DNA of 64,000 bases from positions 1 to 64,000 of the forward strand of contig NZ_JAUDEA010000004.1 of the NCBI RefSeq assembly GCF_030372065.1. Direction: 5' to 3'. A model generated the notes under the pieces. It was not told where the DNA came from. It did not search any database and was given only the letters and a program-made list of their open reading frames with translations. The translations under genes and the position numbers were made by a program. Positions 1 to 16,009 of the stretch are shown here, piece after piece. Source of the DNA: Thermophilibacter provencensis (GTDB lineage Bacteria; Actinomycetota; Coriobacteriia; Coriobacteriales; Atopobiaceae). Each line of letters begins with the position of its first letter. Position 1 is the stretch's first letter.

Positions 1-36
1 CTTTGTCAGCTTACCCCGTCGCCCCCGTCACCACCG
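1..36. repeat. Fragment of a dispersed G-rich palindromic repeat
   Basis: Read on the minus strand this stretch contains TGACGGGGGCGACGGGG followed by a CTGACA-type end. The same string forms the centre of the palindrome at 16527-16597, and a relative (GACGGGGTAA) lies in the palindrome at 17540-17660. It lies just downstream of the ribbon-helix-helix gene, where a terminator would be expected. The window edge cuts it, so the full structure cannot be seen. Confidence 0.45.
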
Positions 37-213
37 TTACTGGTCGTCGTTCTTCTCGCCCTTCTTGGGAAGACGGCCGGCGCGGCGCAGAGCGTCGCGC
101 AAGATCCACTCGACCTGGCCATTCGCGCTGCGCATATCGTCAGCGGCCCAGCGCCCTACCGCGGCCCAGACCTCGGGGTCTATGCGGAGCGGGTATTGCT
201 TGCGCGCGGCCAC
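37..213 (-). CDS. Small ribbon-helix-helix (Arc-like) DNA-binding protein
   Basis: A 58-residue protein read from a GTG at 213; AAGG lies a few bases upstream, in the short gap after the SPFH gene stop. The protein has a short basic N-terminus, then a beta-strand-like [13 protein letters not shown] and an amphipathic region ending in [17 protein letters not shown], which is the layout of Arc/CopG-type ribbon-helix-helix domains. It follows the SPFH gene by 12 bp on the same strand, so the two are almost certainly co-transcribed. A role as a small regulator, perhaps of its own operon, is inference. It is too short for a firm family call, but the GC-rich third positions and tight spacing support it as real. 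Confidence 0.68.
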
Positions 214-225
214 GTCCTTCTCGCC

Positions 226-1245
226 TTACTGGTAGAGGGAGCCGGTGTTGAGAACGGGCTGCGCCTCGGACTCGCCGCAGAGGACGACCATGAGGTTGGA
301 GGCCATAACGGCCTTGCGGTCGTCGTCGAACTCCACCACGCCGCCGGCGGAGAGCTCCTTGAGAGCCATGTCCACCATGGAGACCGCGCCCTCCACGATC
401 TTCTTGCGCGCGGCGATGATGGCCTCGGCCTGCTGGCGGCGCAACATGGCCTGGGCAATCTCCGGCGCATAGGCGAGGTGCGTGAGGCGGGCGTCATCCA
501 CAGAGACGCCGGCCGGGGCAAGGCGACGGTCGAGCTCCTCCTTGAGGGACTCCGAGACCTCCTCGATGTTGGAGCGCAGCGTGATGGAGCTGTTGGAGGC
601 GTCGTCATCCTCCATGTGGTCATAGGCGTAGACGCTGGCCACGTGACGCAGCGCGGTCTCCGTCTGCATGGCCACGTAGCTGGGATAGTGATCCACGTCG
701 AAGAGGGCCTTGGCGGTATCGGCCACGTGCCAGACCACGACGGTTGCGATCTCGATGGGGTTGCCCATCTTGTCGTTGACCTTGAGGCGGTCGCCGTTGA
801 GCGTGCGGGCGCGCAGCGAGACCTTGGTGGAGAGTGCCTTGGCGGCCGCGGCGGCCTTCACGGACGGGGTGCCCTCCTCCAGGCTCACGTCGATGGAGGC
901 GCCGGTGCCGTCCGAGCCCAGGCTGTGGCTATAGAAGGGGTTGACCCAGTAGAAGCCGGACTCGCGGACGGTGCCCACGTAGTTGCCAAAGAGCACGAGC
1001 ACGCGCGCCTGGCCCGGCTGCAGCGAGAAGAACCCGCAACTGAGGATGATTGCCACGATGAGCAGCACGATGCTGCCCACGAGCAGCGCGGGGCCGGTGA
1101 CGGGCGCGGGCACGCCGGCGTCCTCGGCGGTGGCGAGGATGATGATGCCCTGGACCATGCCCCAGATGGCGGCGGCATACGCGACGAGGGTGACGAAGAG
1201 CATGGGCCAGCCGGACGCGGCGCGGGCCTGCTTCTCTACGGTCAT
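226..1245 (-). CDS. SPFH/Band 7 domain membrane protein
   Basis: 339 residues. Two hydrophobic segments near the N-terminus (about residues 14-38 and 50-75) are followed by an SPFH/Band 7 domain: QPGQARVLVLFGNYVGTVRE, then an Asn-Pro-Phe (YWVNPFY) and the YPSYVAMQTETALR region typical of prohibitin/stomatin/flotillin-like proteins. A coiled C-terminal part with AQAMLRRQQAEAIIAARK is also characteristic of the family. Such proteins form oligomeric membrane scaffolds; the substrate or partner here is unknown. The ATG at 1245 has an AGGAAAGGA-like ribosome site. The small ribbon-helix-helix gene follows immediately. A perfect palindrome at 1305-1316 lies about 60 bp upstream and may be its operator. 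Confidence 0.85.
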   Translation of the reverse strand: MTVEKQARAASGWPMLFVTLVAYAAAIWGMVQGIIILATAEDAGVPAPVTGPALLVGSIVLLIVAIILSCGFFSLQPGQARVLVLFGNYVGTVRESGFYWVNPFYSHSLGSDGTGASIDVSLEEGTPSVKAAAAAKALSTKVSLRARTLNGDRLKVNDKMGNPIEIATVVVWHVADTAKALFDVDHYPSYVAMQTETALRHVASVYAYDHMEDDDASNSSITLRSNIEEVSESLKEELDRRLAPAGVSVDDARLTHLAYAPEIAQAMLRRQQAEAIIAARKKIVEGAVSMVDMALKELSAGGVVEFDDDRKAVMASNLMVVLCGESEAQPVLNTGSLYQ

Positions 1246-1304
1246 TGCGGTTCCTTTCCTGGTGACGGGCGCGCCCCGGGGTGGGCGTCCTCGTCTGATG
1301 CCAT

Positions 1305-1316
1305 TGTGATATCACA
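1305..1316. promoter_or_regulatory. Perfect 12-bp palindrome TGTGATATCACA (candidate operator)
   Basis: TGTGATATCACA is its own reverse complement and lies between the divergent SPFH gene (start 1245) and rlmD (start 1387). On the minus strand it contains a TGATAT that could act as a -10 element. A regulator binding here could control the SPFH operon; which one is unknown. Confidence 0.4.
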
Positions 1317-1373
1317 TTGGTTTCTTTGCAAGAGGGGACCGCAAGCGCGCGGCGTTTGTCGGCAAACGGCGGG

Positions 1374-1379
1374 TATACT
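1374..1379 (+). promoter_or_regulatory. -10 box TATACT of rlmD, leaderless mRNA likely
   Basis: TATACT ends 7 bp before the rlmD ATG at 1387. A transcription start 6-8 bp downstream of a -10 falls on or next to the start codon, and no Shine-Dalgarno sequence is visible between them. This is the arrangement of leaderless transcripts, which are common in Actinomycetota. No clear -35 was seen. Confidence 0.5.
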
Positions 1380-1386
1380 GGGTGCC

Positions 1387-2829
1387 ATGGGATACAAGAC
1401 CTACACCTGCCCGATTGCGCGCGACTGCGGCGGCTGCGAATGGCTCGCGGTCCCCTACCCCATACAGCTGCGACGCAAACAGGAGCAGGCGGAGGGGCTG
1501 CTCGGGGGCATGGCCAAGGAGGACGGCGCCGCGCTCGAGCCCATTCGCGGCGTGGAGGAGCCCGTGCGCTATCGGCACAAGGCGGCGACGCCGTTTGCCC
1601 ACGCGCGCGGCGGGCGCGTGCTTTGCGGGTTCTACGCTGCGGGAACGCATCGGATCGTGCCGTGCGAGAGCTGCCTGGCGGAGGACGAGCGGGCCCGTCG
1701 CATCCTGAACGGCGTTGCGCGCGTTGCCGAGCGGCTGCACATACCGCCCTACGACGAGGACCGGGGCGTGGGGGTGTTGCGCCACGCCGTCGTACGCTGC
1801 GGGTGGAAGACAGATGACGTGATGCTCGTGCTGGTCACGCGCGTTGATGAGCTGCGTGGGGTCGAGCGCCTCGTCTCCGAGCTGCGCGCGGAGTGCCCCG
1901 AGGTCACGACCATCGCCCAGAACGTGAACGACCGGCGGACCAACGCGATCTTGGGTCGGCGCTGCCGCACGCTCTTTGGCCCGGGCGTCATGCACGACGA
2001 GCTCCTGGGCTGCCGCTTTGAGATTGGCCCCACGAGCTTCTACCAGACCAACCCCGCCCAAACCGAGGTGCTCTACGGGCTCGCGATTGAGGGCACAGGT
2101 GATGCCCGGCGCGTTCTCGACGCGTACTGCGGCACGGGCACCATCGGCATCTGCGCCGCCGCAGAGACGCCCGGGATGCAGGTCGTGGGCGTTGAGCAGG
2201 TGCAGGGCGCCGTAGCGTGCGCGCGGCGTAACGCCGAGGCCAACGGCGTGGCGGATCGGTGCGGCTTTGTTGCCGCGGACGCCACTTCGTGGATGGCGCG
2301 CGAGGGTGCGCGCGAGCACTTCGACGCCGTCATCATGGATCCGCCGCGCGCGGGAAGCACGCCCGAGTTTCTGACCGGCGTGGCGGACCTCGCCCCAGGG
2401 CGCGTGGTTTACGTGAGCTGCAACATCGTCACCCAGACGCGAGATCTTGAGATTCTGCGTGTGCACGGATATCGGCTCGAGCGCGTGTGCCCCGTGGATA
2501 TGTTCCCGCACACCAAGCACGTCGAGACGGTTGTTCTCTTAGGTAGGGAATTAGAGAAAAGCCGTGAACATGTCTACTTGGACTATGAACCGTCTAAAGA
2601 AATTGATCTGCCCGGCGGTGCGACCTATGAGCAGATCAAGGCGTATGTGCTGGAGCATACCGGCTTGAAAGTCAGCCACCTCTATATCGCCCAGGTCAAA
2701 CAAAAGCATGGTATCATCGAGCGGGAGTGTTACAACAAGCCCAAATCTGAGGATGCCAAACAGCCGCAATGCCCGCCGGAAAAGGAAGCGGCGATTGAGG
2801 CGGCATTGAAGCATTTCAAGATGATCTGA
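1387..2829 (+). CDS. rlmD: 23S rRNA (uracil-5-)-methyltransferase RlmD/RumA with an element-derived C-terminus
   Basis: 480 residues from ATG 1387. It methylates a uracil in 23S rRNA using S-adenosylmethionine. The N-terminal CPIARDCGGC plus a later CESC provide the cysteines of the [4Fe-4S] cluster of this family. The methyltransferase half shows FYQTNP, DAYCGTGTIG (SAM loop), MDPPRAG and VSCNIVTQTRDL with the catalytic Cys; the usual SCNP reads SCNI. Up to HVETVV (about residue 382, base 2530) the gene is very GC-rich. The last ~99 residues (GRELEKSREHVYLDYEP... KHFKMI) switch abruptly to AT-richer codons and resemble C-terminal extensions of RumA proteins in Clostridia. The tail was brought in by the mobile element, which keeps the frame open. 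Whether the hybrid enzyme is fully active cannot be told from sequence. Confidence 0.9.
   Translation: MGYKTYTCPIARDCGGCEWLAVPYPIQLRRKQEQAEGLLGGMAKEDGAALEPIRGVEEPVRYRHKAATPFAHARGGRVLCGFYAAGTHRIVPCESCLAEDERARRILNGVARVAERLHIPPYDEDRGVGVLRHAVVRCGWKTDDVMLVLVTRVDELRGVERLVSELRAECPEVTTIAQNVNDRRTNAILGRRCRTLFGPGVMHDELLGCRFEIGPTSFYQTNPAQTEVLYGLAIEGTGDARRVLDAYCGTGTIGICAAAETPGMQVVGVEQVQGAVACARRNAEANGVADRCGFVAADATSWMAREGAREHFDAVIMDPPRAGSTPEFLTGVADLAPGRVVYVSCNIVTQTRDLEILRVHGYRLERVCPVDMFPHTKHVETVVLLGRELEKSREHVYLDYEPSKEIDLPGGATYEQIKAYVLEHTGLKVSHLYIAQVKQKHGIIERECYNKPKSEDAKQPQCPPEKEAAIEAALKHFKMI
2521..2541 (+). other. Left attachment site (attL) inside rlmD
   Basis: Host rlmD codons for HVET end here and element codons begin; composition drops sharply after the GT at 2530-2531. 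The matching right junction at 11391 reads GAA AGC GTG GTC ACA CTC, which aligns as E-S-V-V-T-L with E-T-V-V-L-L here. Large serine recombinases exchange at a 2-bp core, so little flanking identity is expected. The exact core is inferred, not proven. Confidence 0.65.
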
Positions 2830-2833
2830 CGGA

Positions 2834-3149
2834 TTGCTCTTAGATTCTGAGCCGGAGGCAGAGCCAGCCACCGCAAAGCGGCTTGCACTTGGCGGGTTCT
2901 GGCGGCGGTGCTATACTGGTGAATGCGACGGTGAGGTTCTTTGGAGGATTGCTCCTGAGTTCCTCACCGTCGGCTATTTTATGCAGCGCCGCCGACAGGT
3001 TCAGTCAAGTGTGGCGTCAAATTTTGCTCAGATTGCAAATAAGATGCTTCAGAGCACAGATACACGAGAAACGAAGAAAAATTGCACAGCGTAAACAACA
3101 GGCGCACATTTCGATACATTCTAAGATGAACCGCAACTGCACTATGTAG
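2834..3149 (+). other. Element left-end region with two short overlapping open frames
   Basis: Two overlapping plus-strand frames (2834-3094, 86 codons; 2883-3149, 88 codons) cover this stretch just after the rlmD tail. One contains SGGGAILVNATVRFFGGLL and a basic tail, the other FMQRRRQVQSS. Neither matches a domain that I recognise, and both lack a convincing ribosome site. An inverted GGTGAGG/CCTCACC pair (about 2930-2971) and the terminator at 3128 suggest that the region may act as an untranslated leader or small RNA. Coding status is undecided. Confidence 0.25.
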
Positions 3150-3163
3150 CTGCGGTTCTTTTT
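3128..3163 (+). terminator. Rho-independent terminator upstream of the rep region
   Basis: Arms GAACCGCA (3128-3135) and TGCGGTTC (3151-3158) are followed by a run of T ending at 3163. It would end transcription coming from rlmD or its promoter before the replication module. Confidence 0.7.
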
Positions 3164-3240
3164 GCTTCTGTCTGTATTCGGGCGGGCGTTAGCCCGTCCC
3201 CATACCGTCCAAACACACCGTTTTTGCACCAGCGTTTCTT

Positions 3241-3507
3241 TTTACACCCTTTTAGGCTATGGAGTGTAAACGGTGTAAACAGTGTAAAATTTTTCATCAA
3301 GTGCCGAAAACCCTTGAAAATAGGGGGCCATCCCACAGTGGGCTTGTGTGGGATGGCCCAGAACGCAACGGTGTAAACGGTGTGAAAAAACGCTTCCTAC
3401 AAGCAAATTCACACCTTTTTAGCAATAGCATATACAAAAGAAACGGTGTTAATGTATTGACTTCACACCGTTTCTACATTACAATACAAGAAGAAACAGT
3501 GTGAAAC
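3241..3507. repeat. Iteron-like GTGT(A/G)AA repeats upstream of rep
   Basis: GTGTAAA occurs at 3264, 3273 and 3282 with an exact 9-bp period, again at 3371 with GTGTGAA at 3380 (also 9 bp apart), and in inverted form (TTTACAC, TTCACAC) around 3241, 3409 and 3461. A further copy (CAGTGTGAA) overlaps the upstream region of the rep start. Tandem short repeats beside a Rep gene are typical of replication origins and Rep autoregulation. A binding role is inferred from position. Confidence 0.7.
3325..3359. other. Perfect 13-bp hairpin within the iteron region (candidate origin/nick structure)
   Basis: GGGCCATCCCACA (3325-3337) and TGTGGGATGGCCC (3347-3359) form a perfect stem with a 9-nt loop. It has no T-run on either side, so it is unlikely to be only a terminator. 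It sits between two clusters of GTGTAAA repeats, as expected for the double-strand origin of a rolling-circle replicon, where an HUH Rep nicks near a cruciform. Confidence 0.5.
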
Positions 3508-3518
3508 GAGGTGAGCGC

Positions 3519-5477
3519 ATGGCATATAAAACGAAAAACAGTGTCAAGGGTGAACGCAAGCGCGGCTTGCAGGCCGTAAAGGAAATGGAAGCCGCTCCGG
3601 GATACGATCCCCAGGCTACGTTAGCTCTGGCACAGGCAAATTTAGATGCTTTTGGTAAGCTGGATGATCTGGATGATGCGTCATTTATTGCCTGCATGAA
3701 TGATATGCGGGCAAATCACCCGGATATTTATCCTGTGTTCTGGTGGTGGCGGAAAGCCGAAGAACAAGCCGGACGTCGGCAGGAAGAAGATGGTGAAGGA
3801 ACAGAATCCAGATATAAATTTTTCATGGTGACGCAATTTCTGCTTGACCCTTTCGCTGACGAATGGGAAGATGACAGGCAAATGCTGAAACCCGGCGTGG
3901 CCCCTTGGATTGATACGCCTCAGATTGAAGCTGGTCTTGACCACAAGAGCATCAAGCGTTGGTGTTGGATTTGGCATGATCGTGATATTTACACCGAAGA
4001 GGATGAAATCGCTGACCGAACCGGGCGAATCAAAGCAGGCGACCGAAAGTTCAAACACGCGCACATTGTGCTTGAAGTTCCCGGCAAAGTGCCGATTTCG
4101 ACTATTGCCCGCTGGTTCAAGGTACCGCCGCAGCAGGTGACGATCCTGCGCGGACGCGGGGCTTTTCTCGATGGTTCCGAATACCTTGTGCATGAAAGCC
4201 CTCGTGCGGTCGAACAACACAAGACGCACTACGATGACGATGAGGTTCATACTTCACCGGGTTTTGATTTCCGCAAAGAGCTGACCGATTTGCAAGCGCA
4301 TAGAGCTAAATTTGGCAAACGCGCTGGTGAGATGACACCCGTCGATACAATGCGGATGCACGTTCTATTGGATGGTTGGACAATGAAACAGTGCCGTGAG
4401 GATGATCCGCTCACATTTTCAAAGATACGGAATACATTGCCTCCTTTACGACTTGACTATCTGATGGATGCACCACCTTGCCCTTTTAGGCTCAACATTT
4501 ATGTGGACGGCCCCGGCGGCATTGGCAAATCGGCTTTTTGTGAGTATATTGCACAAAGTTTATTTTCGTTCGTAGATGATCCATTTTTTCACGTTGGGAA
4601 CGATGAGCGTGTTACATTTGACGGTTATGATGGTGAGCCTGTTATTATCTGGGATGATATGCGAGCTATAGACTTTATTAAACACTTTGGCAACAATGGA
4701 ACTTTCCGTTTGTTTGATCCGCACCCAAAGAAAATGGCAGAGCAGGCAAAACATACACGTGTTATTTTGAACAACGCCTTAACTATTATTAACGGCGTAG
4801 ATTCTTTTGACAAATTTATTTCTACACTTGCGGGTGAGTACATCGATGCGAAAGGCTATCATCATCACGCTGAAGATGCAAATCAGGCATGGAGACGTTT
4901 TCCGATGATTTTATGCGTTCGGGAAAACGATTTCGATATTTTGATTAACCAGGGCTTCATCAATAAAGACCTAAGCTCTATTCAAACACTAATTACTTAT
5001 TCTCATGTACGCGGGAGCATGAAAGCTATCATCGAAAGATTGGACGGGGCAGCAAAACAAAAGGCTTTTGCTGGATTTGTCCAACCGGTGGTAAACGCCG
5101 CAAAAATGATTGAAGACAAACATGATGATAAGATTTCTGATCCCGATCAGATTCCGCCGGAAATGATGCCCGTTGTTGAATCGGCTGAAGATCGTTTTAT
5201 GCGTGAGTGCGCTGAGTACGAGGAGCGGCGCTTCAATACGCTGGTATCATTCGGCCATTGGTTCTGGGATTCCCCCGCCGGTGGCTGGGCGGAATACACT
5301 AAAATGTATCCTGCTGCCAAAGTGCGCCCACAAGAAGAATATGAATTTTTGCACAATCTGCAATGGCCGACAATCCGAGATGCGATTAACAGATATGTAG
5401 ACGGCGAACTGGTAGCAACATACACAGAGCAGATTATTCGGGATACAATCGAGATGGTGTGGAACGGACAGTTATAA
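3519..5477 (+). CDS. Replication initiator with HUH endonuclease and SF3 helicase domains
   Basis: 652 residues from ATG 3519, preceded by GAGGTG at a good distance; the upstream GTG at 3501 is less likely. The N-terminal half has HAHIVLEV (about residue 180), a histidine motif of rolling-circle Rep proteins, followed by EYLVHES (about residue 222) with the presumed nicking Tyr, as in pMV158-type RepB. The C-terminal half has a Walker A GPGGIGKSAF (about 331) and Walker B PVIIWDDM (about 376), typical of a superfamily 3 helicase. HUH-SF3 fusions start and drive rolling-circle replication. In an integrated element it would replicate the excised circle, which helps maintenance and transfer. The iterons and hairpin just upstream are its likely target. 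Confidence 0.85.
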   Translation: MAYKTKNSVKGERKRGLQAVKEMEAAPGYDPQATLALAQANLDAFGKLDDLDDASFIACMNDMRANHPDIYPVFWWWRKAEEQAGRRQEEDGEGTESRYKFFMVTQFLLDPFADEWEDDRQMLKPGVAPWIDTPQIEAGLDHKSIKRWCWIWHDRDIYTEEDEIADRTGRIKAGDRKFKHAHIVLEVPGKVPISTIARWFKVPPQQVTILRGRGAFLDGSEYLVHESPRAVEQHKTHYDDDEVHTSPGFDFRKELTDLQAHRAKFGKRAGEMTPVDTMRMHVLLDGWTMKQCREDDPLTFSKIRNTLPPLRLDYLMDAPPCPFRLNIYVDGPGGIGKSAFCEYIAQSLFSFVDDPFFHVGNDERVTFDGYDGEPVIIWDDMRAIDFIKHFGNNGTFRLFDPHPKKMAEQAKHTRVILNNALTIINGVDSFDKFISTLAGEYIDAKGYHHHAEDANQAWRRFPMILCVRENDFDILINQGFINKDLSSIQTLITYSHVRGSMKAIIERLDGAAKQKAFAGFVQPVVNAAKMIEDKHDDKISDPDQIPPEMMPVVESAEDRFMRECAEYEERRFNTLVSFGHWFWDSPAGGWAEYTKMYPAAKVRPQEEYEFLHNLQWPTIRDAINRYVDGELVATYTEQIIRDTIEMVWNGQL

Positions 5478-5537
5478 TTGACTACTTGCGTTCTGCATGA
5501 TTTACGGTAAACTGAAATCAGAAGTGAGGTGATTCAA

Positions 5538-5855
5538 ATGGCCAAATCAAGCGCCGACTTGAAAAAGGAAGCGGCCACTCTGCGGGCAAAACTTGCCGCA
5601 GTTCAAAAAGAGGCCCGCAAGATGAAGAGACTGGAAGATCAGCAAGCCGCCGAAGAACAGCGCCAGCGTGATATACAGTTTGCTCTTGAGTTCGTGGAGA
5701 TGGCAAAGGAGATGTATTTTCGGGATGGCAATCGAAGCTATTTTGATTACATCTCTGAGAAGATGGCTGAAAAGCAAGCTGCCGCACAACCTGCAACTGA
5801 TTTAACAGAACAGCAGCCCGTGAATCAATCTGCGGGCTATGCACAGCAGATTTGA
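5538..5855 (+). CDS. Small coiled-coil protein of unknown function
   Basis: 105 residues from ATG 5538, with GAGGTG upstream. The first half is heptad-rich and charged (KKEAATLRAKLAAVQKEARKMKRLEDQQAAEEQ), a likely coiled coil. The middle has EFVEMAKEMYFRDGNRSYFDYISEKM. It lies 60 bp after rep and ends at a strong terminator, so it is likely co-transcribed with rep. Possible roles include a Rep accessory or copy-control factor, or a relaxosome helper, but no specific family was recognised. Confidence 0.65.
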   Translation: MAKSSADLKKEAATLRAKLAAVQKEARKMKRLEDQQAAEEQRQRDIQFALEFVEMAKEMYFRDGNRSYFDYISEKMAEKQAAAQPATDLTEQQPVNQSAGYAQQI

Positions 5856-5857
5856 CC

Positions 5858-5890
5858 TAAACCCCGTTGGGAAGAACCCGACGGGGTTTA
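5858..5890 (+). terminator. Rho-independent terminator after the rep operon
   Basis: TAAACCCCGT (5858-5867) pairs with ACGGGGTTTA (5881-5890). The stem continues through a G-U pair and GGG/CCC to an AAGAA loop. It separates the replication genes from the mobilization gene. Confidence 0.8.
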
Positions 5891-6003
5891 TAATTTAGGG
5901 GCTTGCGTTCTGAACATTTTGTGGTATGTTGCAGGTAAAGGAAGGTTTGCCGCCCGGCTGGAAACGTAGTTTCCAAAGAGGGAGCTGACGGCAGGAGGAC
6001 GAT

Positions 6004-6055
6004 GGGTTTGTTTACAAACCCTGAGGACATTCATACTGGGTTTGTAAACGACCCC
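6004..6055. promoter_or_regulatory. Palindromic leader before the relaxase gene (candidate oriT or operator)
   Basis: GGGTTTGT-TT-ACAAACCC (6004-6021) is an 8-bp perfect inverted repeat. The same GGGTTTGT string returns at 6038 in GGGTTTGTAAACGACCC. The position just before a MobV-type relaxase fits either the transfer origin or an autoregulatory site. No nick-site consensus could be confirmed by eye. Confidence 0.45.
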
Positions 6056-6075
6056 GCGGCAGGAGGTGAAGCGAT

Positions 6076-7479
6076 ATGGGTTGGAAATGTGCGCCGCAAG
6101 TGATGGGCTTGGTGAGAGGTGAACCGAAGCAAGGGCAGAAACATCGTGCGAACATTCGGAAGATTGCGATGGAAGCCGGATACGAGCGAGCATCGAAATC
6201 GGATACACTGGATAAGAGCCGGTCGAAGCAAAACCAGTATGACGGATACAGTAGCGGTGCGGAGTTTGCCGCTGTTATGGAACAGGAAGCCTCTAAGTAT
6301 CGTGTCAAAGTGAATGGAAAAACTAAAGATAAAAAGCCGGTCGTGCGTGAAAAAGGTCTGCCGCATAATGCTGTGATCGGCTGGGCAGTGATTTATAATC
6401 CGCCCGCCGAAGTTTGTGCAACATGGACGAACGACGATTATCAAAAATTTTACGCAGACTGTCGGGAGTGCATGGCTAAGATTGAGCCGCGATTGTTTCG
6501 CAGTGAAAATATCCGAATGTCTGCCGAGCACTTTGATGAAGGTATTCCACCAGATGAAAATTCAGGTGTGATTGACCGTCATTTGCATGACCTCGGAGTA
6601 TCGAAAGATGCAGACGGACGCTATTGCGGAAATCTTATAGATGCAAAGCTCCTGATTAAAATCAATGAGCGTTTTCCCGCTCTGATGCGTGAGTGCGGGT
6701 GGGATATGGATGACCTTGACCGCACAGACTTTGAACGGGCCAAGACCGACAAAGAATACGCCAGCGAGCGAAACGCAAAACGTCGGCAATCCGGTCTTTC
6801 TGTTAATAAACACCTGGGTAATAAAGCTCGTGAGATGGCTGAGGATGCCGCAGAGCTTGTTGAGCAGGCAGAAGCATTGAAAGCACAGATGGAAGCCGCT
6901 GCCGCTGCACGTCAACAGCAACTGGATTTGACCGCACAGCAGCAGGAAACCACACGCAAAGAGCAGGAAGCACTCACCCAACAGCAGGAAGATACACAGA
7001 AAAAGCTGGATGGTCGAGATAAGGGGCAGCGCCGCTTGCTGAAATTCATTTACAATTTATATCAAAATCTTAGCGGCGAGCGTGCTGCATTCCGCACATA
7101 CTCTGAGGGTGTTGAGATGTTCAAGGCCGCCATGGATTCGTTTGTGGAACGCACAACAACAGAGGCGCGAACGAAAGCGCAGGAAGAAGCAGCCGCTGCA
7201 TTTCAAAAGAAAGAAGATGCGCTGGAAGCCCAGAAATTGGTTTTGGATGAATTGGAGCAGCTTAGAGATAAGCTGCAATCGTCCACAGATACGGACGCCA
7301 GTAGAAAACGCTTTATGGAAGCTCATAAGTTTAGAGATGGCCGCACGCTGGAAGATGCCTATCAATCATCCATCCGGCAGAAGCAAGAACATGACACCGC
7401 ATTCATGAATCGTGCATCCGAGCTGAAGAATGAATATGACCGGTTGCATCAAGGTGTGGAGCAGCAAGAAAAGCAATAA
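6076..7479 (+). CDS. MobV/Pre-type plasmid mobilization relaxase
   Basis: 467 residues from ATG 6076, with GGAGGTG upstream. The N-terminal part carries AEHFDEG (about residue 150) followed by RHLHDLG (about 168), corresponding to the HxDE...PHxH metal-binding motif of Pre/MobV relaxases; here the two halves are separated by an unusual DENSGVID insert. The C-terminal half is a long Gln/Glu/Ala-rich coiled coil (about 250-330). MobV relaxases nick oriT and lead the strand into a helper secretion system. It stands alone between a terminator and a short regulator gene. The relaxase assignment is good; the precise family branch is less certain. Confidence 0.75.
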   Translation: MGWKCAPQVMGLVRGEPKQGQKHRANIRKIAMEAGYERASKSDTLDKSRSKQNQYDGYSSGAEFAAVMEQEASKYRVKVNGKTKDKKPVVREKGLPHNAVIGWAVIYNPPAEVCATWTNDDYQKFYADCRECMAKIEPRLFRSENIRMSAEHFDEGIPPDENSGVIDRHLHDLGVSKDADGRYCGNLIDAKLLIKINERFPALMRECGWDMDDLDRTDFERAKTDKEYASERNAKRRQSGLSVNKHLGNKAREMAEDAAELVEQAEALKAQMEAAAAARQQQLDLTAQQQETTRKEQEALTQQQEDTQKKLDGRDKGQRRLLKFIYNLYQNLSGERAAFRTYSEGVEMFKAAMDSFVERTTTEARTKAQEEAAAAFQKKEDALEAQKLVLDELEQLRDKLQSSTDTDASRKRFMEAHKFRDGRTLEDAYQSSIRQKQEHDTAFMNRASELKNEYDRLHQGVEQQEKQ

Positions 7480-7586
7480 TAGTTGGCACCTTTTCGGAGG
7501 TCCAGATTGCTTTTTGGGCCATTTTATGATACACTATTACACAAGTACACAATAACACAAAATCGCGCGTTGAGAGGAAAATTAAA

Positions 7587-7742
7587 ATGGCAGAAAGAAA
7601 TATGGTAAACCTGACAATTACAATGACGCGAGAAGAACGTAAGGCACTCAAACAGATTGCCCTGGACAAAGATATGACGGTTTCTGCTCTTTTGCGTAAC
7701 TGGCTAAAAGAACACCAAGCAAAGGAGGAACAGAACAAATGA
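7587..7742 (+). CDS. 51-residue ribbon-helix-helix protein
   Basis: ATG 7587, with GAGAGGAAAATT upstream. The protein reads as a beta strand (MVNLTITMT), a first helix (REERKALKQIALDK) and a second helix after MTVSALLRNWLKEH, a classic ribbon-helix-helix fold. Its stop codon overlaps the methyltransferase start (ATGA at 7739-7742), so the two are translationally coupled. The position suggests that it controls the restriction-modification operon, like a C protein, or that it is a mobilization accessory; both are inference. Confidence 0.75.
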   Translation: MAERNMVNLTITMTREERKALKQIALDKDMTVSALLRNWLKEHQAKEEQNK

Positions 7743-8809
7743 ACAATAATATTAACGGGACGCTATTTTCTTTGCACTATGGCAATGTGTCGGAGGTTTA
7801 TTCTCAGTGGCCGGCACCCGACTTAATTATATCCGATGGTGCGTATGGTGTTCGTGGATTTCGGGGAGATACAACTGATGCAGCAGGCTTGGTCGATTGG
7901 TATAAGCCGCATGTCTTAGCCTGGGCAAAAGCTGCCAAGCCGTCCACAAGTCTATGGTTTTGGAATACAGAGGTTGGATGGGCAACCGTCCATCCGTTGC
8001 TTTTGGCTACAGGATGGGAATATGTTCAGCTGGCTGTATGGGACAAAGGATTGGCACATATCGCTGGAAATGTAAATGGAAAAACTATTAGGCAACTGCC
8101 GGTTGTAACTGAGGTATCTGCTTTATATCGAAGAAAAATCTATTTGCAGACAGGCGATGGACAAACTTTAGGAGCAAAAGAGTGGTTGCGTGCTGAATGG
8201 CAGCGCAGCGGATTGCCGCTTTGCAAATCCAATGAAGCGTGCGAAGTTAAAAACGCGGCCACGCGAAAGTATCTAACTGCTGATTGGCTTTGGTATTGGC
8301 CGCCCGGTGAGGCGGTTGAAAAAATGGCTGATTATTGCACCAGACATGGGAAAAAGACTACTTGGCCGTATTTCTCATTAGATGGAATACACAACGTAAC
8401 GGCCCGTGATTGGGATGCGTTGCGTTCGGTTTGGAATCATAGGAATGGGATCACAAACGTATGGAGCAGGCCACCCCTTGCTGATTCTGAACGGTTGAAG
8501 GGTACAATGGAACGCAGTGCACCGAGAACGTACAAACCGACAAAGTTATCTTCGGCTCATCTGAATCAAAAACCATTAGACCTAATGCTGACTCAAGTCG
8601 CCGCAACCACAAATGAAGGTAGTGTTGTTTGGGAACCTTTTGGAGGCTTAGCATCAGCTTCTGTAGCCGCTGTTCTATTAGGCCGACACGCATATGCAGC
8701 AGAAATTGACAAAACTTTTGTTAATTTGGCAAAAGAACGACTCATCGAAGCCAATGAAAGTTTACAAAACAATGGAGTGTATAATTTTAGGGAGGAAAAA
8801 AGTGAGTGA
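7739..8809 (+). CDS. Site-specific DNA methyltransferase (N4/N6, beta class) of a restriction-modification system
   Basis: 356 residues. A catalytic motif IV variant SDGAYGV lies near residue 31; the common DPPY/SPPY reads DGAY. The SAM-binding motif VWEPFGGLASASVAALLG lies near residue 298, preceded by HLNQKPLDLM. This order (motif IV first, SAM motif last) is that of the beta class, with the target-recognition region between. It transfers a methyl group to adenine-N6 or cytosine-N4 to protect the host DNA. It overlaps the upstream regulator by 4 bp and the downstream nuclease by 8 bp. The recognition sequence cannot be read from the protein. Confidence 0.85.
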   Translation: MNNNINGTLFSLHYGNVSEVYSQWPAPDLIISDGAYGVRGFRGDTTDAAGLVDWYKPHVLAWAKAAKPSTSLWFWNTEVGWATVHPLLLATGWEYVQLAVWDKGLAHIAGNVNGKTIRQLPVVTEVSALYRRKIYLQTGDGQTLGAKEWLRAEWQRSGLPLCKSNEACEVKNAATRKYLTADWLWYWPPGEAVEKMADYCTRHGKKTTWPYFSLDGIHNVTARDWDALRSVWNHRNGITNVWSRPPLADSERLKGTMERSAPRTYKPTKLSSAHLNQKPLDLMLTQVAATTNEGSVVWEPFGGLASASVAAVLLGRHAYAAEIDKTFVNLAKERLIEANESLQNNGVYNFREEKSE

Positions 8810-9671
8810 AGTAACTAGATACACGCTTCCAGCTGATGACGAACGGACAGAGCTTCAAATGGGAGTAATTAAAGCACTGCAAGCAGTGCCAATGCACTTT
8901 AAGTCCACAATTAACATCGAAGGCTTGTCTGCAACAGATCTGTTTGCAATGAATACACTTCTGGGGGGCGCTATCGAGGAACAAACAGTTGCCACATTAA
9001 ATGCGACAAGAGCGATTTGGGACCCAAGCGGTAAATGGGCAAATTACGAATTCAGAAGATATGCTGAAAGTTTTCCCGATGTTCGCCTTGAAAGAGCTGG
9101 AGGAGAACAGCCTCTGATTGGAATTGAGCTGAAAGGATGGTATCTGCTTGCCAAAGAAGAAATGCCTTCTTTTCGCTTTAAGGCTTCCGCAGATGCAATG
9201 ACCGTATGGGACTTAATTGCTGTATTTCCCTGGTCCCTTTCTAATGTGATATCTGGACAGCCTATTTTAGAGGAACCATATATCGAACAAGCAAAATACG
9301 CTGCCGATTTACGGACATATTACTGGGAACATCGTAGTCCAAACGCAATGCCAGTAGAACATCCAGAGACGCACCCATATCCAGAAGCGGGTAGTTCGTA
9401 TTCTGATATAGTACATGATGATCGAGGCGGTAATTTCGGACGCATTGCTAGGGTACACGGCTTGATGGAGGATTGGGTATCAGACACGATGACATTACCT
9501 CTTGCTGGCATTGAGGCCAGGTGGTGGGTACGCTTTCTGAAGCTATTTGACGAACGCGGTAATGAAGAAGTAGTCCGTCAGCGATTTGAGCGTTTGGCAC
9601 AGGCTGCCGGTCACGATTCTGGATGGGTAGACGAGGTTGTATTCCATGTCAAGCAACTAATGGATTTATAA
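8802..9671 (+). CDS. Type II restriction endonuclease, PD-(D/E)XK type
   Basis: 289 residues from GTG 8802, with GGGAGG upstream inside the methyltransferase end. A candidate catalytic core is FPDVRL (Asp near residue 92) followed by IGIELKGWY (Glu-x-Lys near 107), matching PD...(D/E)XK nucleases. Companion position and overlap with the methyltransferase make it the cognate restriction enzyme. No homologue of known specificity was recognised. As a pair the two genes protect against phage and also stabilise the element, because loss of the methyltransferase exposes the chromosome to residual nuclease. Confidence 0.75.
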   Translation: MSEVTRYTLPADDERTELQMGVIKALQAVPMHFKSTINIEGLSATDLFAMNTLLGGAIEEQTVATLNATRAIWDPSGKWANYEFRRYAESFPDVRLERAGGEQPLIGIELKGWYLLAKEEMPSFRFKASADAMTVWDLIAVFPWSLSNVISGQPILEEPYIEQAKYAADLRTYYWEHRSPNAMPVEHPETHPYPEAGSSYSDIVHDDRGGNFGRIARVHGLMEDWVSDTMTLPLAGIEARWWVRFLKLFDERGNEEVVRQRFERLAQAAGHDSGWVDEVVFHVKQLMDL

Positions 9672-9704
9672 AAAAGCTACTTCAAAAAGAAAGGCATACG
9701 GCAA

Positions 9705-11414
9705 ATGGCACAAAAGAAATTGCGCTGCTATCTCTATACCCGCGTTTCCACGCAGATGCAGGTGGACGGATACAGTCTGGATGCACAACAAGATCGACTG
9801 AAAAAGGAGGCTGCTCACCGCAATTTGCAGGTGGTCGCCGTCTTTTCGGACGAGGGCAAATCCGGCAAGAACACCACTGGCAGGCCGCAGTTTCAGGAAA
9901 TGATGCGCCGGATACAGAATGGCAACGAAGACCACGTCGATTATGTGCTGGTCTTCAAGCTGTCCCGGTTTGGCAGGAATGCCGCTGATGTGTTGAACAA
10001 CTTGCAGATCATGCAGGATTTCGGTGTCAATCTCATCTGCGTAGAAGATGGGATTGATTCTGCCAGTGCTGCCGGAAAAATCCTCTTTCCTGTTCTTGCC
10101 GGTGTTGCAGAGCTGGAGCGTGAAAACATTCAGGCTCAGACGATGGCTGGACGTTGGCAGAAGGCTCGTGAAGGCAAATGGAATGGCGGTCAAGCTCCAT
10201 ACGGCTATCGGATCGAGGATGGTGTACTGGTCATCGAAGATTCCGAAGCTGCGCTTGTTCGGCTAATTTTCGAAAAATATGTGCAGTCTGATATGGGTAT
10301 AAACGGCGTTGCCAAATGGTTGAATGAGAACGGATATAGTAAGCAGGCTCGTCAAAATGGGATATATAGCCGGATTTCAGCTACTTTCGTGAAAGGGGTA
10401 GTGGACAATCCAGTCTATGCCGGAAAAATCGCTTACGGACGCCGGAAAAGCGAGAAAATAGAAGGCACACGCAATGAATACCATACCGTCAAACAGGCGG
10501 AATATGAAATATTTGACGGGAAGCATGAGGCCATTATTTCGGACGAGCTCTGGCAGGCCGCGCGAGCAAAGCGAGGCTTGAACGCCTACAAGCGGGAAAA
10601 AAGATACAGCCCGGAACACGCTCACATCCTTTCCGGTCTCGTCAAATGCCCTATCTGCGGCGCACCGATGTACGGCGTCGTGAACCGGAAGAAGAAAAAA
10701 GATGGTTCCGGCGAATTCTACACAGATATGTGGTACTATATCTGCAAGAATACCAAAACCGTAAGCGGCCAGCGCTGCACATACACAAAGCACATCCGGC
10801 AGGACGCGGTGAATGAGCAGGTGCGCCGTGTAGTCCAGGAAGCGCTGCGGAATATGGATTTCACAGCGGACATTATGAAATCCATCGGAACCGACGCCAA
10901 TCTGGACGCTTTACAGGCGGAAGCCGATACTCTCACTGCTGCCAAAAAGAAGGAAGAACGCCAGAAGGCCAAGCTGCTATCGAAGATTATGGAACTTGAT
11001 GCCGACGATGAGCTGTACGACGAAATGTACGATGACCTGCAAGGGCTGCTGCGCCAGCGAATGAAGCGTATTTCCGAATTGGACAGCAAGATCAATCAGG
11101 TGAGTATCGCTATTCAGAACGCAGGCAGCAAGGCCGCTACGGCTGAGGAAGTATATGCCACCATGCGGATTATCGTGGACATGATGGACATTATGCCGGA
11201 GCGTGACGAACAGGAAATCATGCACTCATTGCTTGACAGCGTGCAGATTTACCCTGAGCGGCAGCCAAACGGCCTCTGGATCAAGAGCGTTCGCTTCAAA
11301 GTTCCGCTGGAATTTGACGGTGTATCGTCACATGACGTGATTATTGACAATGACAATAATTCCCTATCTAATGTAAGTAATGACGAAAGCGTGGTCACAC
11401 TCGTCCGACGCTGA
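9705..11414 (+). CDS. Large serine recombinase (integrase of the rlmD element)
   Basis: 569 residues. The resolvase-type catalytic domain opens with YLYTRVSTQMQVDGYSL (catalytic Ser15) and continues with KLSRFGRN and AELEREN. The recombinase domain (GKWNGGQAPYGYRI) follows, then a zinc ribbon (CPICG...YYICKN...RCTY) and a coiled coil (about residues 420-460). Such enzymes integrate and excise without host factors. The final residues SVVTLVRR are encoded by host DNA beyond attR: they look like the displaced native end of RlmD (VETVV-TLVRR). In the excised circle the recombinase therefore has a different C-terminus. Confidence 0.93.
   Translation: MAQKKLRCYLYTRVSTQMQVDGYSLDAQQDRLKKEAAHRNLQVVAVFSDEGKSGKNTTGRPQFQEMMRRIQNGNEDHVDYVLVFKLSRFGRNAADVLNNLQIMQDFGVNLICVEDGIDSASAAGKILFPVLAGVAELERENIQAQTMAGRWQKAREGKWNGGQAPYGYRIEDGVLVIEDSEAALVRLIFEKYVQSDMGINGVAKWLNENGYSKQARQNGIYSRISATFVKGVVDNPVYAGKIAYGRRKSEKIEGTRNEYHTVKQAEYEIFDGKHEAIISDELWQAARAKRGLNAYKREKRYSPEHAHILSGLVKCPICGAPMYGVVNRKKKKDGSGEFYTDMWYYICKNTKTVSGQRCTYTKHIRQDAVNEQVRRVVQEALRNMDFTADIMKSIGTDANLDALQAEADTLTAAKKKEERQKAKLLSKIMELDADDELYDEMYDDLQGLLRQRMKRISELDSKINQVSIAIQNAGSKAATAEEVYATMRIIVDMMDIMPERDEQEIMHSLLDSVQIYPERQPNGLWIKSVRFKVPLEFDGVSSHDVIIDNDNNSLSNVSNDESVVTLVRR
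11383..11403 (+). other. Right attachment site (attR)
   Basis: Element sequence ends near the GT at 11391-11392. The following GTCACACTCGTCCGACGC-TGA is GC-rich and reads TLVRR-stop in frame with the recombinase, the expected original 3' end of the host rlmD. Restoring HVETVV+TLVRR gives a natural-length RlmD C-terminus. Confidence 0.6.
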
Positions 11415-11443
11415 TCGTCTGGTCGCATTAGTCGGGATTTGGG

Positions 11444-11652
11444 CTCTCGTGTAGCGCACGGGCCCCTTCGCTGGAAATCTGCCTCTTCGTGTAGCGTGAA
11501 ATCGGGCCCTGATACGCCTCTTCGCACGTAGCGGTAACCCGCGTAGCCGCAAAGTCCCAGTTGGCAGCAAGCCGCCTACTCAACAGGGTTGCTAAAGCAC
11601 GCTACACGAAGGGGCAGATTTCCATGGGCGCGGGTGTTGCGCTACACGAGAG
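11444..11652. repeat. Dispersed ~200-bp palindromic repeat, copy 1 (GTGTAGCG core)
   Basis: Two modules face each other: CTCTCGTGTAGCGC ... GAAATCTGCCTCTTCGTGTAGCGTGAAA on the left, and GCACGCTACACGAAGGGGCAGATTTCC ... GCGCTACACGAGAG on the right. The same arrangement recurs at 20327-20525. No open frame was found in it. It lies between the element's right end and the purN terminator, on the host side. Confidence 0.8.
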
Positions 11653-11667
11653 GCCGAATCTCAAAAA

Positions 11668-11694
11668 GGCTGCGGCCCCTTTGGGGCCGCAGCC
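11668..11694 (-). terminator. Rho-independent terminator of the pur operon
   Basis: GGCTGCGGCCCC (11668-11679) pairs perfectly with GGGGCCGCAGCC (11683-11694) around a 3-nt loop. The AAAAA just to the left is a T-run on the minus strand, so this ends the purE-srt-purF-purM-purN transcript. Confidence 0.92.
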
Positions 11695-11730
11695 TTGAAA
11701 ATCTTGAAAATGCCTTGGCCGGCGAGCCCT

Positions 11731-12345
11731 TTACGCGGGGTCAATCGCCACCGTCAGGTTCTCGCGCACGTGCACGCGACCGGCGGCGAGAAGCCCCACG
11801 ACCTCGGGATAGAGCTCGTGCTCAATCTCGTGGATGTGCTCCTCGAGCTCGTCGACCGTCCAGCCCTCCTCAACGGGCAGCGCGCGCTGCGCGATGATGG
11901 GGCCGGCATCGTAATCGGCGTTGGCAAAGTGCACCGTCACGCCCGTGACCTTGACGCCGCGCTCATACGCGTCGGCGATGGCGTGCGCGCCGGGAAAGCT
12001 CGGCAGCAGTGCGGGATGCAGGTTCACCACACGGTTGGGGAACGCCGCCAGGATGGGGTCATGCACCTTGCGCATGTAGCCCGCCATGATGACGTAGTCC
12101 ACGCCGCGACGGCTCAGCTCGGAGGCAATGATCTCGTCCGCCTGCTCAGGGTCGGCATAGATCTCCTTGGAGAGCGTGAGAGTCTGCAGGCCCGCGGCCT
12201 CGGCGCGCTTGAGGCCAAAGGCACTCGGGCGCGAGCTCACCACCAGCTCAATCGTCGCGTCGAGCGTGCCGTCGGCAATGCGATCGATGATGGCCTGAAG
12301 GTTGGTCCCGCTGCCGGAGATGAGAACGCCCAGCTTAATGCTCAT
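11731..12345 (-). CDS. purN: Phosphoribosylglycinamide formyltransferase
   Basis: 204 residues from ATG 12345 (the frame is open further upstream, but MSIKLGVLISGSGTNLQAII is the family's N-terminus). It transfers a formyl group from 10-formyl-tetrahydrofolate to GAR in purine synthesis. Visible landmarks are GSGTNLQ for the phosphate, MAGYM, NLHPALLPSFPG with the catalytic Asn/His, and HFANADYDAGPIIAQ with the catalytic Asp. The start overlaps the end of purM by 11 bp, and it is the last gene of the operon before the terminator at 11668. Confidence 0.96.
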   Translation of the reverse strand: MSIKLGVLISGSGTNLQAIIDRIADGTLDATIELVVSSRPSAFGLKRAEAAGLQTLTLSKEIYADPEQADEIIASELSRRGVDYVIMAGYMRKVHDPILAAFPNRVVNLHPALLPSFPGAHAIADAYERGVKVTGVTVHFANADYDAGPIIAQRALPVEEGWTVDELEEHIHEIEHELYPEVVGLLAAGRVHVRENLTVAIDPA

Positions 12346-13426
12346 CGTCGTACACGACCTTCCCCTTCTCGCCCGGCATTCCGGCAACCACGCGACCAAC
12401 CTCAAACGGCGAGAAGCCCTGCGCCACCAGCGCCTCGCAAACGGCGTCCTCGTCGTCCGCGGCGCAGATGATCGCCATGCCCACGCCCATGTTGAACGTG
12501 CGGTACGCCTCCTCCAGCGTGAGACCCGCCTCGCGAATCATGTACGCGATGACGGGCGGCATGTCCCAGGCCGGACCGGCCTCGCCGCCGCGATAGACCA
12601 GCGCGTCCAGCCCCTCGGGCATGGCGCGGTCGAGGTTCTCGGTGATGCCGCCGCCCGTGATGTGCGCCATCGCGTGGATGGGCGCACCGGCGCGCAGCGC
12701 GGCGAGAAGCCCACCGGCGTAGATGGTCGTCGGGCGCATGACGGCGTCGGCGAGCGACTCCCCGCCCAGCTCATCGAGCGGCGTCTCCAGCTCCTCCACC
12801 ATGCGACCCTCGATGGCAACCTTGCGCACGAGCGAGTAGCCGTTGGAGTGGATGCCCGAGCTCGGAAGGCCCAGGATGACGTCGCCCTCGCGCACCAGGT
12901 CCGGGCCGATCATCTTGGGGCGGTCCACCACGCCCACCACAAAGCCGGCGAGGTCATAGTCACCCTCGGCCATAACACCGGGGTGCTCGGCCATCTCGCC
13001 GCCCACGAGCGCGCAGCCGGACTTGCGGCAACCCTCGGCGATGCCCCCCACGATCTTGGCCACGTGCTCGGCGCGCAGCTTGCCGATGGCCACGTAGTCG
13101 AGGAAGAACAGCGGCTCGGCTCCCATGGGCACGATGTCGTCCACGCACATGGCAACGAGGTCCTCGCCCACCGTCTCGTGGCGGTCGAGCAGCTGCGCGA
13201 TGGCGAGCTTGGTGCCCACGCCGTCGGTGCCGGAGACCAGAATAGGCTCCTCCATGTCCTTGAGCGCGGCCGCCGAGAAGCACGAGCCAAAGCCGCCCAG
13301 GCCTCCGATGACCTCGGGGCGGTTGGTTGCGGCAACGGCCGCCTTGATCGCGTCGACGGCGCGGGCGCCCTCGGCGGTGTCAACACCTGCGTCCTCGTAG
13401 CTCACATGCTTGGTGTTCTCAGCCAT
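12335..13426 (-). CDS. purM: Phosphoribosylformylglycinamidine cyclo-ligase (AIR synthetase)
   Basis: 363 residues. It closes the imidazole ring of FGAM to give AIR, using ATP. The sequence shows YEDAGVD at the N-terminus, GGFGSCF, VSGTDGVGTKLAIA and a MCVDDIVPMGAEPLFFLDY block, then SSGIHSNGYSLVR and HITGGGITENLDR, the nucleotide- and substrate-binding signatures of PurM. It overlaps purF by 8 bp upstream and purN by 11 bp downstream, so it sits in a tightly coupled operon. Confidence 0.97.
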   Translation of the reverse strand: MAENTKHVSYEDAGVDTAEGARAVDAIKAAVAATNRPEVIGGLGGFGSCFSAAALKDMEEPILVSGTDGVGTKLAIAQLLDRHETVGEDLVAMCVDDIVPMGAEPLFFLDYVAIGKLRAEHVAKIVGGIAEGCRKSGCALVGGEMAEHPGVMAEGDYDLAGFVVGVVDRPKMIGPDLVREGDVILGLPSSGIHSNGYSLVRKVAIEGRMVEELETPLDELGGESLADAVMRPTTIYAGGLLAALRAGAPIHAMAHITGGGITENLDRAMPEGLDALVYRGGEAGPAWDMPPVIAYMIREAGLTLEEAYRTFNMGVGMAIICAADDEDAVCEALVAQGFSPFEVGRVVAGMPGEKGKVVYDDEH

Positions 13427-14966
13427 CTTGGTCCTTTCGGGTTGGGCGATTCAAAGGGGCTGCCCCTTTTGAATCATTATCGAGGAAGTCCTTCGCATCT
13501 TTGAGCGGCATCCGAGACGTCTCGGACGCCGGGGCAAGATTCTTGGGCTCGTACTCGGCAAGAAAGCGGTCGCCCCAGTACGAGCGCGGAATCTCAACGG
13601 GGTACTCCCCGGTAAAGCACGCCTTGCAGTAGCCGTGGGCGTCACCGCCGGGCACGCAGGCAAGAAGCCCCTCGATGGAAAGAAACCCCACGGAGTCCGC
13701 CTCAATGTGGGCGCGAATCTCCTCGAGGGTCATCTTTGCTGCGATGAGCTGGTCCTGGCTGCCCGTGTCAATCCCGTAGAAGCACGGCCACGCAACCATC
13801 GGCGAGGCGGAGCGCACGTGCACCTCGGTCGCACCGGCCTCCTTGAGCATGCGCACGATCTGGCGGCTCGTGGTGCCGCGGACGATGGAGTCGTCCACCA
13901 TCACCAGGCGCTTGCCGCGCACCACATCGGGCAGGGCGTTGAGCTTCAGGCGCACGCCCATCTGCCGCAGCTCCTGAGTGGGCTGAATGAAGGTGCGCGC
14001 CACGTAACGGTTCTTGATGAGGCCCGTTCCAAAGGGAATCCCCAGCTCCTGGGCAAAGCCCTCGGCCGCAGGGGTGCCGGAGTCCGGCACAGAGATCACA
14101 AGGTCCGCCTCGACGGGCGTCTCCTGAGCCAGGCGACGCCCCATGTTGTTGCGCATGAGGTAGAAGCTCGAGCCGTCCTTCATCGAGTCCGGGCGCGAGA
14201 AGTACACGTGCTCAAAGATGCACTCCGCGCGACATCCCAGCTGGCAGCCGCGCTCAGAGCGCAGGCCGTCATCGGAGACGCGAATGATCTCCCCGGGCTC
14301 GATCTCTCGCACAAACTTGGCGCCGGCAATGTCGAGCGCGCAGGTCTCGCTCGCAACGACCCAGCCGTCGTCACCGAGGTGACCTAGCACCAGCGGCCGG
14401 ATACCGTGCGGGTCGCGGAAGGCGTAGAGCGCGTTCTCGCGCACGAGCACCATGGCGTAGCCGCCCTCAAGCATGCGCATCGTGTGCGCGATGCCCGTGC
14501 GAAGGCGCCCCGAGCGCTGCGTGAAGTAGCCGATGAGCTTGGCCGCCACCTCGGAGTCCGTGTTGGAGCGGAAGGGAATGCCCATCTCGATGAGCTCGCG
14601 GCGCAGCACGTCAAAGTTCACGAGCGTGCCGTTGTGCGCCAGCGCGATGATCACGTCGTTGATCGTGGAGAGGTGCGGCTGCGCGGCCTCCCAGCCGCGC
14701 GCACCCGCCGTGCCGTAGCGGCAGTGCCCGCACGCGACCTTACCCGACATGGCGGTGAGATCGGCGTCCGAGAAGACCTGCGTCACCAGGCCAAGGTCCT
14801 TGCGCACGAGCACGGAGCGCCCGTCGCCCACCGCGATTCCCGCCGACTCCTGGCCGCGGTGCTGCAGCGCGCGCAGGGCAAAGTAGGTGATGCGGGCCAC
14901 GTCGCGCTCGGGCGCCCACACACCAAAGACGCCGCATTCCTCGTGGAGCTTCTCGGCAGCGGGCAT
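13419..14966 (-). CDS. purF: Amidophosphoribosyltransferase (glutamine PRPP amidotransferase)
   Basis: 515 residues from ATG 14966; a GTG one codon upstream is also possible, both after GGGAGG. It catalyses the first committed step of purine synthesis. A short propeptide (MPAAEKLHEE) precedes the nucleophile Cys of CGVFGVW. The glutaminase domain shows HRGQESAG and HNGTLVN; the PRPP-binding loop is MVDDSIVRGTTSRQIV. Cysteines in RAECIF, WPCFYGID and GYCKACFTG match the Fe-S cluster ligands of the Bacillus-type enzyme. Its last ~20 codons contain a palindromic repeat (13448-13475), translated as SKGAAPLN. The start overlaps the sortase stop (TGATG). Confidence 0.97.
   Translation of the reverse strand: MPAAEKLHEECGVFGVWAPERDVARITYFALRALQHRGQESAGIAVGDGRSVLVRKDLGLVTQVFSDADLTAMSGKVACGHCRYGTAGARGWEAAQPHLSTINDVIIALAHNGTLVNFDVLRRELIEMGIPFRSNTDSEVAAKLIGYFTQRSGRLRTGIAHTMRMLEGGYAMVLVRENALYAFRDPHGIRPLVLGHLGDDGWVVASETCALDIAGAKFVREIEPGEIIRVSDDGLRSERGCQLGCRAECIFEHVYFSRPDSMKDGSSFYLMRNNMGRRLAQETPVEADLVISVPDSGTPAAEGFAQELGIPFGTGLIKNRYVARTFIQPTQELRQMGVRLKLNALPDVVRGKRLVMVDDSIVRGTTSRQIVRMLKEAGATEVHVRSASPMVAWPCFYGIDTGSQDQLIAAKMTLEEIRAHIEADSVGFLSIEGLLACVPGGDAHGYCKACFTGEYPVEIPRSYWGDRFLAEYEPKNLAPASETSRMPLKDAKDFLDNDSKGAAPLNRPTRKDQDG
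13448..13475. repeat. Short palindromic unit inside the 3' end of purF
   Basis: GATTCAAAGGGGC faces GCCCCTTTTGAATC with a near-zero loop. A close relative, ATGATTCAAAAGGGG..., lies inside the degV-like gene end (43007-43041). Both are translated in the same way: SKGAAPLN here and SKADSPLLN there. Confidence 0.8.
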
Positions 14967-15982: not shown

Positions 15983-16009
15983 GCGGGCTCCTTGTCGCTT
16001 GTCGCGGGA

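Follow-up and report, generated by a model that had tools for sequence, protein, structure and literature searches.

The 64,000-nucleotide stretch of contig NZ_JAUDEA010000004.1 of Thermophilibacter provencensis analyzed here (the window) carries an integrative element of 8,861 bp (positions 2526–11386) that encodes a large serine recombinase and sits in the 3′ end of rlmD. The G+C content falls from 0.66–0.71 upstream to 0.40–0.54 between ~2.5 and 11.4 kb and returns to 0.64–0.70 downstream, so that the compositional contrast at the element edges (0.40–0.54 inside against 0.64–0.71 in the flanks), first noticed in an earlier reading made from the letters alone (hereafter, the sequence-only reading), was borne out. 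The same holds for the two reading frames to which that reading had drawn attention, namely an rlmD frame (1387–2829) ending in ~100 extra residues, here called the tail, and an integrase frame (9705–11414) ending SVVTLVRR in host DNA. The integrase frame produced matches above cut-off to Resolvase (PF00239), Recombinase (PF07508), and the zinc-ribbon domain (PF13408), the combination that defines large serine recombinases. No transfer RNA gene was detected by ARAGORN in positions 1–16000.

Comparison with the nearest same-genus genome, which is without the element (L005), located the crossover. In this genome rlmD ends HVE|SVVTLVRR*, and the window flanks joined at 2525|11387 aligned to it in one piece, with 90.2% identity over 1,529 columns and 4 gap positions. 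As the match of the left attachment side (attL) alone stopped at 2525 and the joined flanks formed a single alignment, everything from 2526 (ETVVLLGRELEK..., from the third base of the E codon onward) is element-coded and SVVTLVRR (11388–11411) belongs to the host. The crossover thereby falls on the GA of the Glu codon (2524–2525 = 11385–11386); the two element ends and the empty site have only CGA in common, and no long direct repeat was found. A crossover after HVETVV, on which the sequence-only reading had joined HVETVV to TLVRR, was rejected both by the empty site and by the center of symmetry described below: the proposed joint was wrong by 10 nucleotides, its supposedly native TVV is element-coded, and L005 reads HVESVVTLVRR, not the predicted HVETVVTLVRR. 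The alignment to element-free relatives that had been suggested as a check gave a clear outcome, since rlmD was matched in all 30 same-genus genomes searched, and the 29 readable loci (G015 had an incomplete match, from which no locus could be taken) all lack the tail and stop eight residues past HVE. A tail match (E ≤ 1e-6) was observed in 7 of 297 genomes of the order, the window's own genome counted, and the tail as the native rlmD end of this lineage was accordingly discarded. The site-specific insertion in rlmD, supported by the empty-site alignment, by these 29 loci, and by a second copy of the element (L041, below), stands as originally proposed, as does the claim that both proteins have other C-termini with the element than without it, which the L005 flank join, L041, and the same-genus loci confirm.

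The second copy was found in Anaerotignum lactatifermentans An390 (Bacillota; L041), where the same element with other cargo occupies rlmD with the same GA crossover. The DNA of the two elements is 89.1% identical over 5,257 columns and 90.6% over 1,683. The attL half of L041 is identical to that of the window from GAGACGG through the 38 element bases printed, and its right side (attR) diverges after the GA, where its own host end SVVLMTRCGGQA starts. In both copies, neither joint breaks the reading frame. Between them, the tail differs by eight synonymous and no nonsynonymous changes in 101 codons, leaving the tail protein identical, and the integrase body differs by 106 synonymous and 31 nonsynonymous changes in 555 codons, the integrases being 94% identical. 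As far as sequence comparison tells, this is one element common to a GC-rich host and a Bacillota host. Regarding the cargo, the methyltransferase and probable type II restriction enzyme of the window (7739–9671) are replaced in L041, in the same place, by a single open reading frame (ORF) of 763 residues (L041:15207–17498).

The crossover dinucleotide is also the center of symmetry of the attachment (att) sites. Across 14 sites, of which those of the window and L041 were assembled from two halves and the other 12 read as they stand, base-pair symmetry of the flanks averaged 0.50 when centered on the Glu-codon dinucleotide and 0.16–0.29 at 16 other centers. The short CGA core, the central GA, and the symmetric arms correspond to the form of large serine recombinase att sites. 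In L129 the dinucleotide is GG, and the pattern used in the symmetry search missed four of 16 natural junctions (L102, L132, L136, and L175). In the window, the GA occupies codon positions 1–2 in both the rlmD and the integrase frames, and consequently the excised circle would run NVSNDE into TVVLLGRELEK.

A feature that the sequence-only reading had overlooked is the identity of the exchanged segment, since sequence comparison shows the added end of rlmD to be the C-terminal domain of the integrase itself, swapped in frame. A scan of genome contigs yielded the tail in 345 relatives, of which the best 80, together with seven viral contigs, gave 87 loci. Among them, rlmD and tail share one ORF in 62 and integrase and tail share one ORF in 10 (including L060, which also has a second integrase with the tail in another frame); the rest comprise two loci with integrase and tail in separate frames, five with rlmD and tail in separate frames, seven with the tail alone, and one cut by a contig end. 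The joint in the integrases reads VETVxLLSK followed by the tail, the same words as in the RlmD–tail proteins, which identifies the tail as the integrase domain. Tail similarity also tracks integrase similarity, with r 0.92 over eight same-contig pairs, a value reached in eight of 20,000 permutations. The median ratio of nonsynonymous to synonymous substitution rates (dN/dS) of the tail was 0.057 over 511 pairs, which are not independent and count a few places under two locus identifiers, denoting strong purifying selection, and 62 of 67 rlmD–tail joints keep the frame. Relatives of the tail occur elsewhere as well: viral contigs L037–L040 encode free-standing small ORFs (73–96 codons) 34–39% identical to it, and the conjugative plasmid pAPRE01 of Anaerococcus prevotii (L195) carries it after a recombinase gene in another frame, and a nearly identical tail closes rlmD in another member of the window's order (L171:3195–4787).

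Integrases were searched in 43 of the 80 tail genomes, 24 of which gave a match, and in 295 genomes sampled from the order to which G060 belongs, of which 22 gave a match, two of them (G060 and G068) already picked via the tail. Many of these integrases have RlmD-like ends, such as TQVETVVLMSQSR (L147), EQHVETVCLMSRK (L142), TVETVCLLSCK (L176), and TVETVVGLQRKNT (L174); others run on into VETVxLLSK and the tail. Of the integrase–tail joints, 24 were judged by eye from the printed ends, counting duplicates of one place once and leaving out L138, L139, L143, the second tail of L171, L181, and L183 as ambiguous. Twenty of them keep one frame across the core: the second genes of L034 and L035, the second gene of L036, L044, L054, L056, L072, L102, L114, L127, L129, L132, L134, L136, L145, L172, L173, L175, the second gene of L186, and L192. 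Some of these carry other defects: the frame is lost later within the tail in L036, L186, and L192, and a stop precedes the joint in L173 and L186. In an AlphaFold model of the L114 integrase, a disordered linker (546–580) between the body and the tail helices holds the att codon. Elements arranged in arrays exhibit the order rlmD–tailA followed by intA–tailB (L165; L167 with L166) or int0–tailA followed by intA with an RlmD-like end (L163), and single elements with both ends were also found (L168, L169, and L170). Within arrays, as far as these gene ends tell, each integrase carries the tail of the next element and the last one carries the host RlmD end. Adjacent pairs of tail-bearing serine recombinases also occur, and in all six (L034, L035, L036, L060, L149, and L193) the first gene has the tail without the att-like VETV motif.

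Together, the junctions, the empty site, the second copy, the phase, the domain identity, the selection on the tail, and the arrays are read directly from the sequence, and they suggest the following mechanism. The attP site would lie inside the element's own serine integrase gene, where a linker joins the integrase body to a helix-turn-helix (HTH)-like C-terminal mini-domain, and the window integrase presumably catalyzes the attP × attB reaction. A crossover at the GA of this Glu codon, close to the end of rlmD, would cut the integrase gene at that point. In the integrated state, the last segment of RlmD is replaced by an element-coded one (TVVLLGR), which the integrase linker and mini-domain follow, and the integrase ends with the last eight residues of RlmD; excision would restore both genes. 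Since SVVTLVRR gives way to the element-coded TVVLLGR, RlmD is expected to stay active. The tailed integrase of circles and arrays and the tail-less one of a single integrated copy may differ in activity, in which case the state of the element would set the form of its enzyme. To the reading that attP lies in the integrase gene, that integration swaps the C-termini of integrase and RlmD in frame, and that the tailed and tail-less enzymes differ, we assign a probability of about 0.72. A state-dependent switch of the integrase is a likely consequence of the swap. Its detailed form is considerably more tentative: an integrase built of a body, an att-bearing linker, and a detachable HTH-like domain, whose tailed form, present only in circles and arrays, might favor integration, and whose tail-less form, confined to the border of an integrated element, might favor staying or excision, with RlmD storing the domain and the array enzymes being mosaics of neighbors. 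If so, directionality would be written by the recombination itself and not by a separate factor.

Several observations weigh against this reading. The circle of the window element is deduced and none was seen; five of the 67 rlmD–tail joints and four of the 24 integrase–tail joints (L058, the second gene of L060, L093, and plasmid pAPRE01) are out of frame; the ends of L177, L188, and L189 fit neither integrase form and L178 stops early; the whole-integrase model has a predicted template modeling score (pTM) of 0.35; and the tail is without a recognized function. In a rival reading, the exchange is genuine yet a mere by-product: attP falls by chance in the integrase linker, rlmD needs a harmless end, and the activity of neither protein depends on the tail. 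We consider this possible but rather improbable, given the strong purifying selection on the tail and its retention on recombinases lacking the att motif. It is unlikely that the tail is a built-in recombination directionality factor (RDF), with tailed RlmD or tailed integrase driving excision. Integrase–RDF fusions have been used in structures of the SP-beta integrase (9dxd) and, to judge by the title of PMC5737554, in engineering, and the viral ORFs of L037–L040 offer free-standing relatives; nevertheless, the tail profile had no sequence match to RDFs in the PDB and no clear fold match to a known RDF, and the tail, by its position, belongs to the integrase in the circle form, for which integration, not excision, is the next reaction. 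Although the genome is a draft of 35 contigs, an assembly artefact is hardly credible, as the same joint recurs in Anaerotignum and many other genomes and the window flanks fit L005.

The remaining features of the element and its borders are collected in Table 1. The designation of the element as mobilizable in the sequence-only reading was not substantiated, as no relaxase was recognized for the ORF at 6076–7479 in Pfam, NCBIfam, PHROGs, PADLOC, plasmids, or PDB sequences, an origin of transfer (oriT) not being searched for. The replication protein joins Rep_OBD to an RNA-virus-type helicase domain, and its plasmid relatives comprise 19 records, mostly phytoplasma plasmids, with Leptotrichia wadei at the head (33% identity over 61%). 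Downstream of the native rlmD end, ~11436–11498 and ~11598–11660 are inverted-repeat-like, these two 63-base stretches matching the opposite strand of L005 at 79%. The window's own genome also encodes a second, distant serine recombinase (G000:C1:318600–319580; 30% identity, E 5e-19).

Table 1. Coordinates of the features of the rlmD element and its borders in the window
Feature	Position	Strand	Evidence
Host part of rlmD (23S rRNA U1939 methyltransferase), through the second base of the HVE Glu codon	1387..2525	+	TIGR00479, E 1.8e-89; L005 match to 2525
attL crossover dinucleotide GA	2524..2525	+	Empty site L005, second copy L041, symmetry center
Element-coded new rlmD 3′ end, integrase C-terminal domain (tail)	2526..2829	+	Sequence comparison with relatives
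Right attP arm, 14–28 nt from core	2539..2553	+	14/15 complementary to left arm in window, 15/15 in L041
Replication protein (Rep_OBD and superfamily 3 (SF3)-like helicase)	3519..5477	+	Pfam PF01719, E 6.3e-7; PF00910, E 9.1e-8 (stretch searched, 3528–5477)
Small ORF, no function assigned	5538..5855	+	ORF list, domain search
ORF, possible relaxase (candidate, unproven)	6076..7479	+	No database match
Small ribbon-helix-helix-like protein	7587..7742	+	Weak matches below cut-off
DNA methyltransferase (cargo)	7739..8809	+	PF01555, E 5.6e-12; PADLOC MTase_II, E 7.7e-16
Probable type II restriction enzyme (cargo)	8802..9671	+	PADLOC REase_II, E 4.1e-7 (stretch searched, 8796–9671)
Element part of serine integrase gene	9705..11386	+	Resolvase, Recombinase, Zn_ribbon_recom
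Left attP arm	11357..11371	+	Complementarity to right arm
attR crossover dinucleotide GA	11385..11386	+	L005, L041, symmetry center
Host DNA, native last rlmD codons (SVVTLVRR, stop), now 3′ end of the integrase frame	11387..11414	+	L005

Parts of this arrangement have precedents, described here from the passages of the sources that were covered. In streptococcal integrative and conjugative elements (ICEs) of rumA, the 3′ ends of rumA and of the integrase gene are exchanged reciprocally, the frame of both proteins is said to change, and a functional difference between the two integrase forms is suggested (Ambroset 2016, PMC4701971). These ICEs and the related integrative and mobilizable elements (IMEs) with a single serine integrase (PMC4701971; Coluzzi 2017, PMC5357655) resemble the window element in the target gene, the att site inside the integrase gene, the reciprocal exchange, and the altered C-termini, but differ in the frame change, whereas in the window a conserved domain is exchanged in frame, in another host, with no conjugation module recognized. 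In Clostridioides difficile, CTn5 fuses rumA to the element ORF CD1844A, which resembles the C-terminus of other RumA proteins and is not named as the integrase's own domain in the passages covered (PMC4320837). The exchange as such is thus already known from the streptococcal elements and, as a rumA–tail fusion, from CTn5, to judge from those parts of PMC4701971 and PMC4320837. The myxophage Mx8, by analogy the nearest precedent for the effect of a new integrase C-terminus, likewise has attP inside its integrase gene, which acquires a new 3′ end on integration, with a change in the behavior of the enzyme; Mx8 uses a tyrosine integrase, and the handing of a conserved domain to a host enzyme is not described in the passages covered. 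The archaeal suicidal integrases (SSV, pTN3, and pT26-2), as portrayed in the portions covered, are also split by integration, but are tyrosine recombinases whose catalytic part is separated; a loss of this type was rejected for the window, where the serine recombinase body remains whole and only the end domain moves. The SP-beta integrase (YokA/SprA), itself a large serine recombinase, is represented among the nearest full-length solved relatives, which include 9dxh by sequence (E 3.1e-29, profile A2) and 9y66 by fold, and these structures align to the body only, to about residue 531, leaving the tail outside the alignment.

A literature search that reached few subscription papers and no supplements found no publication describing the tail as an integrase domain carried over in frame. 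As far as our searches show, it is new that the tail is a conserved integrase domain, that the frame is kept, that the crossover is placed within a single codon, that arrays hold mosaic integrases, and that a GC-rich and a Bacillota host share one element. Many RlmD proteins of gut bacteria are extended at the C-terminus, and these findings account for the extension as a domain on loan from the integrase of a mobile element; they also indicate that integrase domains are traded between the elements of an array. When integrated elements are mined for integrases, for instance as genome-engineering tools, the genes recovered may be without their last domain. With two natural forms of one enzyme at hand, the question of how a serine integrase is set to integrate or to excise becomes testable.

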